Assembly (NCBI GenBank): GCA_029941115.1
Contig: JAPYRK010000011.1
Span: forward strand, 1-61,361
Length of the DNA stretch: 61,361 bases
Source of the DNA: Dehalococcoidia bacterium
GTDB lineage: Bacteria; Chloroflexota; Dehalococcoidia; UBA2979
Direction of reading: 5' to 3'
Position 1 is the stretch's first letter; each line of letters begins with the position of its first letter. This document shows, in pieces, positions 4,666 through 9,070 of this stretch. The notes under the pieces were generated by a model. The model saw nothing but the letters and a program-made list of their open reading frames with translations. It did no database searches and was not told the origin of the DNA. The translations under genes were made by a program, and so were the position numbers.

Positions 4666-4825
4666 ATGCGCCAATCTGTAATTTAGAATCAACTCCCATT
4701 GTTGCTTCAACTTCAACCAGGGTTAAGAGTTTCAAAATTCTAATCAGCTTAGCGTAATTCTTGTTTAAAAAATTAAGAGTGTCTTAGGGAGGTAGTGCAG
4801 ATACACGAAAAATGACTTAATCTAA

Positions 4826-4876
4826 GGTCCTGTCAGTGGAAGTAATGACGGACCGTTGAGCTAAGGTCAACGGTCC
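4826..4876. promoter_or_regulatory. overlapping inverted repeats upstream of the bc operon
   Basis: A perfect 10-bp inverted repeat, GGACCGTTGA (4850-4859) and TCAACGGTCC (4867-4876), separated by 7 bp. Its left arm also begins a second, competing pairing: GGTCC-T-GTCA (4826-4835) with TGAC-GGACC (4846-4854). The octamer CTAAGGTC occurs at 4822-4829 and 4861-4868. The palindrome ends 12 bp before a good -35 box, so on the plus strand it more likely acts as a DNA operator than as an RNA hairpin. On the minus strand it lies ahead of the MFS gene and could be in its leader. No T-run follows, so it is not a typical terminator. Confidence 0.6.
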
Positions 4877-4888
4877 CATTAGATTTCT

Positions 4889-4917
4889 TCGACATGTCTT
4901 TAAAATTAGATTGTAAT
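4889..4917 (+). promoter_or_regulatory. predicted sigma-70 promoter of the bc operon
   Basis: TCGACA at 4889-4894 (5 of 6 to TTGACA), a 17-bp spacer, and TGTAAT at 4912-4917 (5 of 6 to TATAAT). Start of transcription would be near 4924, leaving a short leader before the ATG at 4938. Predicted from sequence only. Confidence 0.6.
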
Positions 4918-4937
4918 GAGATGCTTTGGAGGTACGA

Positions 4938-5039
4938 ATGCTAGGTGAAGGTGAAGGTCTAGAGTTATTAGGCGTATTTTTCACTTTTATAATTGGCCTA
5001 GGTATCATGGTGGCATTTGGTCGCTGGTGGGAGTCTTAA
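4938..5039 (+). CDS. 33-aa single-helix membrane peptide, candidate small subunit of the bc complex
   Basis: Too short for most gene finders. ATG at 4938, with GGAGGT at 4928-4933 four bases ahead, the best ribosome binding site in this region. The peptide starts MLGEGEGLELLG, then has one hydrophobic helix (VFFTFIIGLGIMVAF), and ends GRWWES. It is the first gene of the respiratory operon, 65 bp ahead of cytochrome b6. The shape, an acidic short N-terminus, one helix and an Arg/Trp-rich end, recalls the single-helix subunits PetG, PetL, PetM and PetN of the cytochrome b6f complex. I cannot show homology to any of them; a structural role in the complex is inferred from position and topology. 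Confidence 0.7.
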   Translation: MLGEGEGLELLGVFFTFIIGLGIMVAFGRWWES

Positions 5040-5104: not shown

Positions 5105-5860
5105 ATGGCTTCAAACGAGCGGCCGCAGAGAGGAACTCTCGGGGATAGGCTTTATGACGCTGCGTTTCAAAATCGATTATGGCGGTCAATATTCCGATCA
5201 GGTTACCCAAACACACCTAGAAATCAAATGCTGGCAGTTGCAACGAATGTTTTTTTGCATCTTCACCCGACCCGTATTCACAGAACACACGTTAAGATTA
5301 CGCATACTTTTTGCTTAGGTGGATTATCCTTCTTTCTGTTTCTGGGACTCACTATTACCGGCGTTTTACTCATGTTCTATTACGTTCCGTCCATCGAGCG
5401 AGCTTATCAAGACATACTCGCACTAGAAACGGATGTGCGATTCGGTCAGTTGATGCGCAATATGCACAGGTGGATGGCCCACGGAATGGTACTGACGGTC
5501 ATTATGCATATGATGCGAGTCTTTTATACGGGCGCTTATAAACCGCCACGAGAGTTCAATTGGGTAATTGGTGTTGTACTCTTGGTCCTGACTCTTCTCC
5601 TATCGTTTACGGGTTACCTTTTGCCTTGGGATCAATTAGCTCTCTGGGCCATAACTGTGGGTACAAACATGGTCGGATCTGCGCCCATTCTGGGTGAGCC
5701 GAATAGGTTTGTACTGGTGGGTGGTTATCAAGTAGGTCAAGCTGCCCTTATTCGTTTCTATACTCTTCATGTGATCGGACTGCCACTTATCGCCGCGGTC
5801 TTTATGATGGTTCATTTCTGGCGAATCCGCCGTGATGGTGGACTTGCGAGACCCCTGTAG
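5105..5860 (+). CDS. cytochrome b6-type subunit (N-terminal half of cytochrome b)
   Basis: Membrane subunit holding hemes b of a quinol:acceptor oxidoreductase. 251 aa from the ATG at 5105 (GGTGAG lies 4 nt ahead; TTG 5093 and GTG 5096 are in-frame alternatives). Four helices with heme ligands H121/H135 and H222/H237. The second pair is separated by 14 residues, as in cytochrome b6 rather than 13 as in mitochondrial-type b. A cysteine at residue 70 (THTFCLGGLS) aligns with Cys35 of cytochrome b6 (FYCLGG), which binds heme c_n covalently. PWDQLALWA and the end RIRRDGG also match the b6/menaquinol-type family. The next gene, 32 bp on, supplies the C-terminal half, so cytochrome b is split. Confidence 0.95.
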   Translation: MASNERPQRGTLGDRLYDAAFQNRLWRSIFRSGYPNTPRNQMLAVATNVFLHLHPTRIHRTHVKITHTFCLGGLSFFLFLGLTITGVLLMFYYVPSIERAYQDILALETDVRFGQLMRNMHRWMAHGMVLTVIMHMMRVFYTGAYKPPREFNWVIGVVLLVLTLLLSFTGYLLPWDQLALWAITVGTNMVGSAPILGEPNRFVLVGGYQVGQAALIRFYTLHVIGLPLIAAVFMMVHFWRIRRDGGLARPL

Positions 5861-5892: not shown

Positions 5893-6957
5893 ATGACTAC
5901 AGTCACTCCTGAAAATTCGTTGGAACCTATATCAAAGGCTGTTCGCGGACGTAAAAGCAGGGCCCGAGAAGAGGAACTGCTGGTCTGGCCCGATCTTGTC
6001 TTTATAGAATTTATCTGTGCGGTACTATTCACCGTGCTAATACTCATCCTTTCTGTTCTGGTCGACGCAGTGCTTCTAGATAGAGCGAATCCTGCGATCA
6101 CACCAAATCCATCAAAGGCTCCCTGGTATTTCTTAAATCTCCAAGAACTACTACTGCACATGCATCCGGCACTTGCTGGCGTAATTGTCCCTACTGTTGC
6201 GCTTGTTGCACTCGGAGCTATTCCTTATTTCGATTCATCAAGTGAAGGACAAGGGGAGTGGTTGTCAACTCCGCGAGCTTGGCTAAATCTCTGGGTTGGT
6301 GCACTTGTTGGATTCTTCGGTACGCTGCTCCTAATTTTGTATGACGCATCTAAGCACGTGAAAATTTTTGAGATGATAGCTAATGGAACACTGAGCCCCA
6401 GAGCTCCGTCCACCCCATCCGCTGAGCAATACGCTGCGGCTTTAGAAGCACGTGGAGATGCTGTTCCATCTGGGCTTCAGGAAATCATAAATGGAGCTAA
6501 TCCCGTTCTGTCGGCAACGGATACAGTGCCCTCAGAATTTTACTCACAGTCGATTTGGAACGGAGCAAGCGGCTACACTGCCTGGCCCGAATCACTAGAA
6601 TTCCTAACAACTATGAGAGGAATTCAAAACAATATTCCTTGGCCAGAATGGTCCAAAAGTATCCCATTAGGTAACTTGCTAAGAACCGACCTGTTTGGCT
6701 TTCCCCGCATTGAACTGAACATTGATATAGCTGCGCTAATTGTGGAGCAAATAATTCCCGTCACAGCAATGATTGGACTGCCGGTTCTTTTGGCCGCAGT
6801 TGCCTCTAAGACTGGAATAGCACAGACAAAGCGCGATCATATGATTATGCAATTTTCTGGGTTCATTGCCGTCTATGTAATATTGACGGTAGTAGGCACT
6901 TACTTCAGGGGTATAGGCCTTGAGCTGGAGCCCTACACGATTTTCTCACACGGATAA
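5893..6957 (+). CDS. cytochrome b C-terminal subunit (subunit IV/QcrC-like) with a large soluble insertion
   Basis: Second half of the split cytochrome b. Residues 33-62 are helix E. The quinol-oxidation loop reads APWYFLNLQELL (76-87) in place of the canonical PEWY, as in several menaquinol-type complexes. Helices F and G follow at about 93-112 and 131-150. A predicted soluble stretch of roughly 125 residues (about 151-275) then precedes two more helices (281-303 and 318-337) and the end GTYFRGIGLELEP. At 354 aa it is about twice the length of plant or cyanobacterial subunit IV (about 160 aa). Start ATG at 5893 with AAAAGGGA upstream. The insertion has no recognisable domain. Part of the bc operon between cytochrome b6 and the Rieske protein. 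Confidence 0.92.
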   Translation: MTTVTPENSLEPISKAVRGRKSRAREEELLVWPDLVFIEFICAVLFTVLILILSVLVDAVLLDRANPAITPNPSKAPWYFLNLQELLLHMHPALAGVIVPTVALVALGAIPYFDSSSEGQGEWLSTPRAWLNLWVGALVGFFGTLLLILYDASKHVKIFEMIANGTLSPRAPSTPSAEQYAAALEARGDAVPSGLQEIINGANPVLSATDTVPSEFYSQSIWNGASGYTAWPESLEFLTTMRGIQNNIPWPEWSKSIPLGNLLRTDLFGFPRIELNIDIAALIVEQIIPVTAMIGLPVLLAAVASKTGIAQTKRDHMIMQFSGFIAVYVILTVVGTYFRGIGLELEPYTIFSHG

Positions 6958-6977: not shown

Positions 6978-7646
6978 ATGTCTAGTGAGTCTACGCAACA
7001 ATCACCGAGTGACGCATGGCGAGCAGCCATTGCTTCTCGCAAAACTCAACTGGCTGACACGGATGGTATTCCTGCAGCCCCAGTTACTCCAATCGATTAT
7101 GACGTTTCGCGAAGACAATTCATCAGAGCCTCGTTCTGGAGTGGACTTGGTGTAACTCTCTTAGGATCCGTCGGACTTCTATTAGACTTCTTATACCCAA
7201 GGAACGTAAAGGGTTTCGGCGGTCCGGTACCTGCCGGCAAAGTCACTGACTATAAACCTGGAGCCGCACCTAAGGCCAACTCAGAAGGCCAATTTTGGAT
7301 TGCCAACCTAGACGAGAATGAATCCCGGCCCGGCGGTTCGGGAGGTGGACAAGGTTTAATCGCATTGTGGCGAAAATGTCCTCACCTAGGCTGCACCGTT
7401 CCTTGGAAGGAAAATCAGGGTTCTGTGCCATTCCCAGGAGATCCAGGATGGTTTATATGCCCGTGCCATGGGTCGACATACACAAAAGCAGGAGTTCGCG
7501 TATATGGCCCAGCGCCAAGATCGATGGATACCATGCAAATCGATATTGATGAAGCCGGAAACATTACTGTCCAAACAGGAGCCGTGGAAAAAGGCGGTCC
7601 GGATAACCCAGAGCGAGCAGTTAATCACCCCTTACTGCCGAGTTAG
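6978..7646 (+). CDS. Rieske iron-sulfur protein
   Basis: Carries the 2Fe-2S cluster that takes electrons from quinol at the Qo site and delivers them to cytochrome c. 222 aa. Cluster ligands C134 and H136 (CPHLGC) and C161 and H164 (CPCH), with C139 and C163 forming the conserved disulfide. A single membrane anchor (about residues 50-73) follows the twin arginines at 45-46 (SRRQFIRAS), so export is probably through the Tat system with the anchor retained. The cluster-binding fold has a Gly/Ser-rich loop (RPGGSGGGQG) before the first motif. A gap of 20 bp separates it from the b subunit and 52 bp from the cytochrome c gene. Confidence 0.97.
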   Translation: MSSESTQQSPSDAWRAAIASRKTQLADTDGIPAAPVTPIDYDVSRRQFIRASFWSGLGVTLLGSVGLLLDFLYPRNVKGFGGPVPAGKVTDYKPGAAPKANSEGQFWIANLDENESRPGGSGGGQGLIALWRKCPHLGCTVPWKENQGSVPFPGDPGWFICPCHGSTYTKAGVRVYGPAPRSMDTMQIDIDEAGNITVQTGAVEKGGPDNPERAVNHPLLPS

Positions 7647-7698: not shown

Positions 7699-8742
7699 AT
7701 GAATACAAGTAAACAAGTGAATGCGATGATAGGTCTGCTTTTTATAGCATTCTTGTTTTTTGGCGGCTATATTGCGAGAGAGCAGCTTCGTGCTGAAGAG
7801 GCTTCGATTCATCAAAATGAAGAGCTCGTTCACAGAGGAGCAGAACTATTTCATAATAACTGTGTGTCCTGTCATGGTTTAGTTGGTGAAGGCAACATCG
7901 GTCCAGCACTTAATTCAGACTTCTTTAGAACAACAGACTCAACACCTGATGGAGAAGCAAGAGAAGTTTACACATACCTATTCAATACTCTCTCTTGCGG
8001 TCGCTCAGGTGCATATATGCCTTTATGGAGTGAGCGATTCGGTGGCTCAATGTCAGAAACACAAATTGACTATCTAGTCAAGCTGATCATGCAAGGTCGC
8101 TGGGATTTAGTTGAGCACGCAAATGAGGAACACTTTGAACACAGGCTAGACAGTTGGGAAATACAAAAAGCTGACGCTGAACGCCGAGCAAGCACCATTC
8201 CTGATCGACCAGAGCTCACGGACTACCTAACAAGCCTTGAAGACTCCGCTAATCTCGCGATCACGGCTGATAATTGTGGTCAATACTCGATGGATACAAG
8301 AAGTAAAATCTATGCTCGTACTCCTTTCTCAGCTGACGCTGCTTCCGTAGAAGCCTCTCAGAGTACTGCCGAATCAGCAGCAACAGAAGCCCCACCGGGT
8401 GTGCTAGCTGTAGAGCTGGCAAAAGACGGCCCCTACGCAATCACTGCACCAGACACATTTAGCGCCGACGGCGAAATTTCGCTTCAAGTCAAGAATAACG
8501 CTGCGCTAATTCACAACCTGCGATTATTGCGTACAGATATTTCAGCTGACAGCCTTCCTACAAATGACCAGGGTATGGTCGATGTTGAGTCGGCAGGCGA
8601 AGTATTATTTGCAAGCGATGACCTACAAAATGGTGGTGAAGAAGAAACAAACCTATCGCTTGACGCCGGAACCTATGTATTATTTTGTGACATTCCAGGT
8701 CACTACCAATTAAGAATGTACAAAGCAATAACTATCGAATAA
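7699..8742 (+). CDS. membrane-anchored cytochrome c fused to a C-terminal cupredoxin
   Basis: Last catalytic gene of the bc operon; likely the electron exit of the complex. 347 aa: an N-terminal membrane anchor (about 11-23), a class-I cytochrome c domain with CVSCH at 55-59 and a candidate axial Met at 107 (AYMPLW), a linker rich in Ala/Ser/Glu (about 212-235), then a cupredoxin domain (about 236-347). The type-I copper ligands are all present: H272 (IHNL), C330, H335 and M340 (FCDIPGHYQLRM). C100 and C193 may form a disulfide. One protein therefore carries both heme c and Cu. Separate plastocyanin-like and cytochrome c carriers are usual; the fusion would permit internal electron transfer toward a terminal oxidase. 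Confidence 0.93.
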   Translation: MNTSKQVNAMIGLLFIAFLFFGGYIAREQLRAEEASIHQNEELVHRGAELFHNNCVSCHGLVGEGNIGPALNSDFFRTTDSTPDGEAREVYTYLFNTLSCGRSGAYMPLWSERFGGSMSETQIDYLVKLIMQGRWDLVEHANEEHFEHRLDSWEIQKADAERRASTIPDRPELTDYLTSLEDSANLAITADNCGQYSMDTRSKIYARTPFSADAASVEASQSTAESAATEAPPGVLAVELAKDGPYAITAPDTFSADGEISLQVKNNAALIHNLRLLRTDISADSLPTNDQGMVDVESAGEVLFASDDLQNGGEEETNLSLDAGTYVLFCDIPGHYQLRMYKAITIE

Positions 8743-8768: not shown

Positions 8769-8885
8769 ATGGCTACAACAGGGAAACGTTATAAATGTCC
8801 AGCATGTGAAGCTGAATTTATTGTCACGCGAGGTGCAGACGAATCCGAGCTTCGCTGCGGTGATAATGTACTTGAGCAAATATAA
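8769..8885 (+). CDS. 38-aa desulforedoxin-like Cys protein
   Basis: ATG at 8769 behind GGGAGGT. The peptide begins MATTGKRYKCPACEAEFIV and ends LRCGDNVLEQI. The start resembles desulforedoxin and the desulfoferrodoxin N-terminal domain (YKC-x2-C, then a second Cys group near the end). Desulforedoxin uses four Cys (CxxC and CC) to bind iron; here only three remain (C10, C13, C30), so the metal site is incomplete unless the protein dimerises or uses another ligand. Located 26 bp after the cytochrome c-cupredoxin gene, and 41 bp before a related small gene. Function unknown. Confidence 0.72.
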   Translation: MATTGKRYKCPACEAEFIVTRGADESELRCGDNVLEQI

Positions 8886-8926: not shown

Positions 8927-9070
8927 ATGGCAGTTGCATTAGGGAAAAGATATAAGGACGAAGAATCTGGTGTAGAGGTGCTATGCATTAAACCAGGTGA
9001 ATGTAATCTAAACGTTGACGGACGACCGATGGAAGAACTGCAACCCAAAGTTCTGCCCTCAGCTGACTAA
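8927..9070 (+). CDS. 47-aa desulforedoxin-like microprotein
   Basis: ATG at 8927 with GGAGG ahead. It begins MAVALGKRYKDEESGVEVLC, contains IKPGECNLNVDGRPMEEL, and ends KVLPSAD. It shares GKRYK and the overall small beta layout with the preceding 38-aa protein, so the two look like divergent copies. The CxxC position of the first copy is replaced by D-E-E-S; only C20 and C26 remain. Probably not an iron-binding rubredoxin-type site any more, or it binds metal differently. Downstream is rpsU with its own candidate -10 box. Confidence 0.68.
   Translation: MAVALGKRYKDEESGVEVLCIKPGECNLNVDGRPMEELQPKVLPSAD

Follow-up and report, generated by a model that had tools for sequence, protein, structure and literature searches.

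A conserved 33-residue single-helix peptide encoded with cytochrome bc genes in Chloroflexota, a probable small subunit of the complex

The window (the whole 61,361-nucleotide stretch of Dehalococcoidia DNA analysed here) carries on its forward strand an operon with the gene order peptide, cytochrome b6, subunit IV, Rieske protein, cytochrome c-cupredoxin fusion, 38-residue zinc-ribbon-like protein and 47-residue protein. The first gene (4938–5039, stop codon included) encodes MLGEGEGLELLGVFFTFIIGLGIMVAFGRWWES, a product of 33 residues that starts at an ATG and is followed by TAA; its frame conservation, selection and helix lead us to propose it as a small bc-complex subunit. The TAA is separated by 65 nt from the ATG of a petB-like cytochrome b6 gene (5105–5860; Pfam PF00033, Cytochrome_B, E = 4.5e-45), followed by a petD-like subunit IV gene (5893–6957; 354 residues with an APWY motif; PF00032, E = 8.5e-6), a Rieske iron-sulfur protein gene (6978–7646; PF00355, E = 6.7e-7), and a gene for a membrane-anchored cytochrome c fused to a cupredoxin-like domain (7699–8742; PF13442/PF00034, with a weak SoxE/Copper-bind match). 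This fusion, a single membrane-anchored protein, possibly carries its own electron acceptor.

A Shine-Dalgarno sequence, GGAGGT (4928–4933), lies 4 nt ahead of the ATG at 4938, and a comparable purine-rich site is found at the homologous peptide start in most relatives. The open reading frame program had picked an alternative in-frame TTG at 4926, which adds four residues; conservation begins only at the ATG. The first-pass annotation of this DNA had described a 33-residue single-helix reading frame with a good ribosome binding site and cytochrome b6 as the next gene, and each of these descriptions was confirmed, the helix by AlphaFold prediction. The same annotation placed a promoter 21 bp ahead of the gene. 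A possible sigma-70-type promoter, TCGACA (4889–4894)-17 nt-TGTAAT (4912–4917), is visible by eye on the forward strand (10/12), but it was not listed by the promoter scanner, which accepts only A as the second base of the −10 element, and is poorly kept in the two same-genus relatives; a promoter at 4889–4917 is plausible but unproven. Further upstream on the same strand, a conserved stem, AATCTAA (4819–4825)/TTAGATT (4879–4885), encloses a perfect 10-bp inverted repeat (4850–4876) of terminator- or operator-like form. The outer stem (4819–4885) is kept in one same-genus relative (L032), where it extends to 9 bp; the fold z of the stem region was −2.1 in the window and −0.8 in L032, and an Rfam search of the upstream hairpin region returned no credible match. 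This stem-hairpin may serve as an operator or belong to a leader RNA, in which case the predicted promoter would not be the start.

Conservation was followed among relatives titled Chloroflexi or Dehalococcoidia bacteria, which were fetched via cytochrome b6 with the peptide ignored in the choice. The first-pass annotation had named loss of the reading frame in relatives that keep the operon as the finding that would refute a new small subunit; instead, of the 58 genomes whose cytochrome b gene (cytb) is at least 75% identical, 57 have the frame directly upstream of that gene. The exception (G097) has none upstream of cytb and exactly one copy on another contig. The small hydrophobic reading frame upstream of cytb follows the pattern GE..LEL..V..T....L.IMV.LGKWWE. 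Whole-genome searches of 119 relatives revealed 61 carriers, each with one copy and all with cytb, and no peptide in any of the 39 genomes without cytb. A family profile gave exactly one match per sequence in 101 sequences (100 loci and the window; 18,040 stop-to-stop frames), the worst E among them being 1.2e-9, and no match when run against reversed frames.

Comparing synonymous with non-synonymous change, a check proposed in the first-pass annotation, came out in favour of the gene. Over 13 within-genus comparisons, the coding frame had a pooled pN/pS of 0.15, the two shifted frames had 1.16 and 5.60, and differences in the peptide at codon positions 1, 2 and 3 numbered 168, 35 and 449, respectively. 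These values show strong purifying selection on the protein, and 4938–5039 is a genuine gene.

Weaker matches were found in other Chloroflexota families in a phylum-wide search. Against the Dehalococcoidia profile, hhalign gave the F92 group (..TEVGEANEFYMVLITVVILIALMYFLQKWWTTYR) a probability of 97.8% and the F111 group (VVSEGMELIIVLLVILANLGILVGLQKWSGLT) one of 97.5%, compared with at most 16% for column-shuffled controls. The window peptide has the features of this Chloroflexota family, namely the invariant Glu9 where the helix starts (E-[LFM]), the helix, a Trp-containing C-terminal end and a match to profile A2/A3. In a sample of 400 genomes from the phylum, 37 carry one peptide copy; cytb was detected at E ≤ 1e-60 in 35 of these 37, against a background of 167/400, and one more has a partial cytb. 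One carrier (G250) lacks cytb at the threshold used. The match in that genome (locus L249, VISETMQLVIVLIVLAFTIGSMYFIQKYTGV) is weak, is without the invariant Glu and is possibly a false positive.

The position of the gene relative to the bc genes varies between lineages. In other families, the peptide lies 3′ of cytochrome c at six loci (L184, L187, L200, L248, L250 and L251); by family and genome, it closes the series cytb-subunit IV-Rieske-cytochrome c at the 3′ end in family f92, in G233 (family f102) and in f100. At L202 and L247 it is found 5′ of an Fe-S oxidoreductase-cytb operon. By genome, it lies in G049 between an oxidoreductase-like gene and cytb, and in G069 and G387 about 2 kb ahead of the operon, the intervening gene in G069 being a pyridine-nucleotide/4Fe-4S oxidoreductase. 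The F111-type homolog stands apart from the bc genes in about ten genomes, where the link is one of co-occurrence only; every F111 genome checked contained a cytb of 63–69% identity (partial only in G276). Co-occurrence and linkage with the core Rieske and cytochrome b subunits are seen across lineages, and the peptide is present essentially only alongside this type of cytochrome b6. The repeated re-linking to bc genes in differing orders is the strongest evidence of a functional tie to the complex. Since the linkage moves yet persists, it points to a physical subunit or a dedicated assembly partner rather than a leader.

Carriers occupy several clades of the cytb tree (the F92 loci L181, L182 and L186 counted as carriers), and the Thermomicrobiales, which have no recognisable copy, adjoin the Dehalococcoidia clade. 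A search of 27 genomes, from Thermomicrobiales, Acidimicrobiia and others, detected no peptide copy but had no built-in positive; Thermomicrobiales and Acidimicrobiia possess a cytb of 58–68% identity. Because their complexes work without a recognisable copy, the peptide is not universally needed by related complexes.

AlphaFold predictions for 22 sequences gave one helix spanning residues 4–32, with a mean pLDDT of 91.9. The conserved residues E9, V13, M24, F27/G28 and W31 share one helix face (permutation p = 0.008), as would be expected if one side of the helix packs against a protein while the opposite side faces lipid. Across family members, the N-terminal flank contains 108 Asp and Glu against 8 Lys and Arg, and the C-terminal flank 50 Lys and Arg against 14 Asp and Glu; because the flank is acidic before the helix and basic after it, the predicted orientation is N-out/C-in. 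The Pet subunits of the cytochrome b6f complex are likewise oriented N-out. The helix and the charge bias together suggest that the peptide, with fewer than 40 residues, forms a single transmembrane helix in this orientation.

Database searches returned no relative of known family. Neither Pfam nor NCBIfam has a model that matches the window peptide, scanning 40 family members against both yielded only scattered chance matches, and a PDB profile search with the peptide family gave no match up to E = 10. In the open-access literature searched, we found no paper on small bc subunits of Chloroflexota/SAR202.

The first-pass annotation had likened the peptide to PetG, PetL, PetM and PetN, the small subunits of the b6f complex in cyanobacteria and chloroplasts. 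The resemblance in kind is real: these subunits are 29–38 residues long with one transmembrane helix, and like the peptide they accompany a complex built on cytochrome b6 and subunit IV, that is, a split cytochrome b. Kinship by descent was not borne out. The end '..LMVAFGRWW' looks somewhat like PetN '..MVVWGRNG' by eye, and size and topology class are the same, but hhalign comparisons with the Pet families (3–5 sequences each) gave probabilities of 0.3–2.2%, no better than column-shuffled or reversed controls; none of the 40 members matched the Pfam PetN, PetG, PetL or PetM models, and the PDB search gave no link to them. The PetN family was absent from the window genome in a search that detected its positive control. 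We consider true homology to any of the four very improbable; a very ancient kinship would still be compatible with these values, because helices this short contain little signal and each Pet profile was built from only 3–5 sequences. The conserved residues also differ (an invariant Glu9 and a G-x-W-W end, with no detectable sequence relation), the peptide genes lie inside the bc operon of a non-cyanobacterial Chloroflexota host, and the complex has a cytochrome c/cupredoxin protein instead of the cytochrome f of b6f.

Taken together, we favour the reading, with a probability of roughly 0.77, in which the Chloroflexota complex of cytochrome b6, subunit IV, Rieske protein and cytochrome c includes the peptide as a structural (supernumerary) subunit, most likely one that has not been described before. 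The acidic N-terminus would lie on the p-side (outside) and the basic, Trp-rich C-terminus in the cytoplasm, and the conserved face of E9, V13, M24, G28 and W31 would pack on outer helices of cytochrome b6, subunit IV or the Rieske anchor. In this position, the peptide may clamp the transmembrane bundle formed by these three proteins and so help the complex, which is probably dimeric, to assemble, to stay stable as a dimer or to maintain its quinone pocket. Both position and function are drawn by analogy, the proposed role matching the one that PetG/PetN play in b6f, or that Rhodobacter subunit IV or QCR9 plays in bc1. The suggestion of a new small subunit made in the first-pass annotation is thus well supported as regards the frame, selection, one copy per genome and bc linkage in several orders, and its binding to the complex is predicted.

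The main rival is a dedicated factor that helps to assemble or insert cytochrome b6 (or its haems) without remaining a stable component once the complex is mature. Genomic linkage alone would look the same for a subunit and for such a factor, as would the co-occurrence pattern, and the peptide is very small and usually encoded first, ahead of cytb; moreover, plants have separate b6f assembly factors, DEIP1 and the CCB proteins (PMC9279372). We nevertheless judge it unlikely: small size, a helix conserved on one side and the lack of any soluble or catalytic part are features seen in structural subunits, and the place 3′ of cytochrome c, as found in other families, gives no support to early action. 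A helix bridging the bc complex to a terminal oxidase or a quinone-reducing module, like the supernumerary subunits of respirasomes, would agree with the one-sided conserved face and with the location elsewhere in some genomes. The repeated co-localisation, however, is with bc genes, and no oxidase genes were identified beside the peptide in the neighbourhoods examined, which makes such a bridge distinctly improbable. A regulatory leader peptide or spurious reading frame, to which the shortness, the first place in the operon and the nearby hairpin might point, is refuted: the amino-acid sequence itself is conserved (pN/pS 0.15) and the frame intact in all relatives. A leader or attenuator would be expected only 5′ of the operon and under weak amino-acid constraint, and copies occur at 3′ ends of operons and, unlinked, on other contigs.

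As a structural subunit, the peptide would have several counterparts. The PetG, PetL, PetN and PetM helices occupy peripheral positions in b6f and are believed to lend it stability (PMC9279372, PMC5126843) or to regulate it (PMC9279372). Subunit IV (FbcQ) of the Rhodobacter sphaeroides bc1 complex has one transmembrane helix, which spans across the Rieske and cytochrome c1 helices, and brings a threefold gain in activity (PMC10041115). FbcQ is, like the peptide, a bacterial supernumerary bc subunit with a single transmembrane helix; unlike it, FbcQ has 124 residues, a soluble part and a gene outside the operon, and shows no homology to the supernumerary subunits of other species. Small subunits of mitochondrial complex III, such as QCR9/UQCR10, are needed for Rieske incorporation and dimer stability (reviewed in PMC10041115). 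These are also single helices, but eukaryotic, longer and unmatched in the PDB search. Tiny single-helix subunits encoded within or near the operon are also found in bacterial respiratory oxidases (CcoQ/FixQ and the CydX type); those are different enzymes, and the peptides had no Pfam match to their models.

The family would be a new one within a known kind of tiny single-helix subunits, described in cyanobacterial and chloroplast b6f and in mitochondrial complex III, whereas the usual description of a bacterial bc complex lists three or four large proteins. That Chloroflexota, uncultured lineages included, have an independent family suggests that single-helix subunits were recruited more than once onto the cytochrome b6/subunit IV core, and why they were recruited becomes testable in cultured carriers, for instance Tepidiforma. 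It would also mean that the family libraries searched miss a conserved component of the respiratory chain.

We also considered the invariant glutamate. At its quinol-oxidation motif, the subunit IV of the window reads APWY rather than PEWY, and so does that of 146 of 150 loci, whether or not they carry the peptide. The idea that the Glu of the peptide stands in for the missing Glu of PEWY was rejected, since the occurrence of APWY both with and without the peptide lends it no specific support. That E9, on the p-side, aids quinol oxidation or proton exit beside an APWY complex, in a new phylum-level family independent of PetG/L/M/N, is speculative and a long shot.

Several smaller observations were made alongside. 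F111-type homologs (VVSEGMEL...LQRWSGLT) at five loci (L191, L192, L193, L194 and L197) do not adjoin bc genes; a protein with a 'ESEWTRFSRALG'-like start lies upstream of the homolog at two of them, L191 and L197, and L193 has a similar protein there. The 38-residue zinc-ribbon-like microprotein of the window (MATTGKRYKCPACEAEFIVTRGADESELRCGDNVLEQI; 8769–8885, forward strand) has matches in 46 of 60 relatives, and its gene is the operon's second small one to show conservation. Where same-family genomes were compared, this gene lies about 3 kb 3′ of cytochrome b6. Next after the zinc-ribbon gene, the 47-residue reading frame (8927–9070, forward strand; MAVALGKRYKDEESGVEVLCIKPGECNLNVDGRPMEELQPKVLPSAD) gave no Pfam match and has a similar GKRYK motif at its start.
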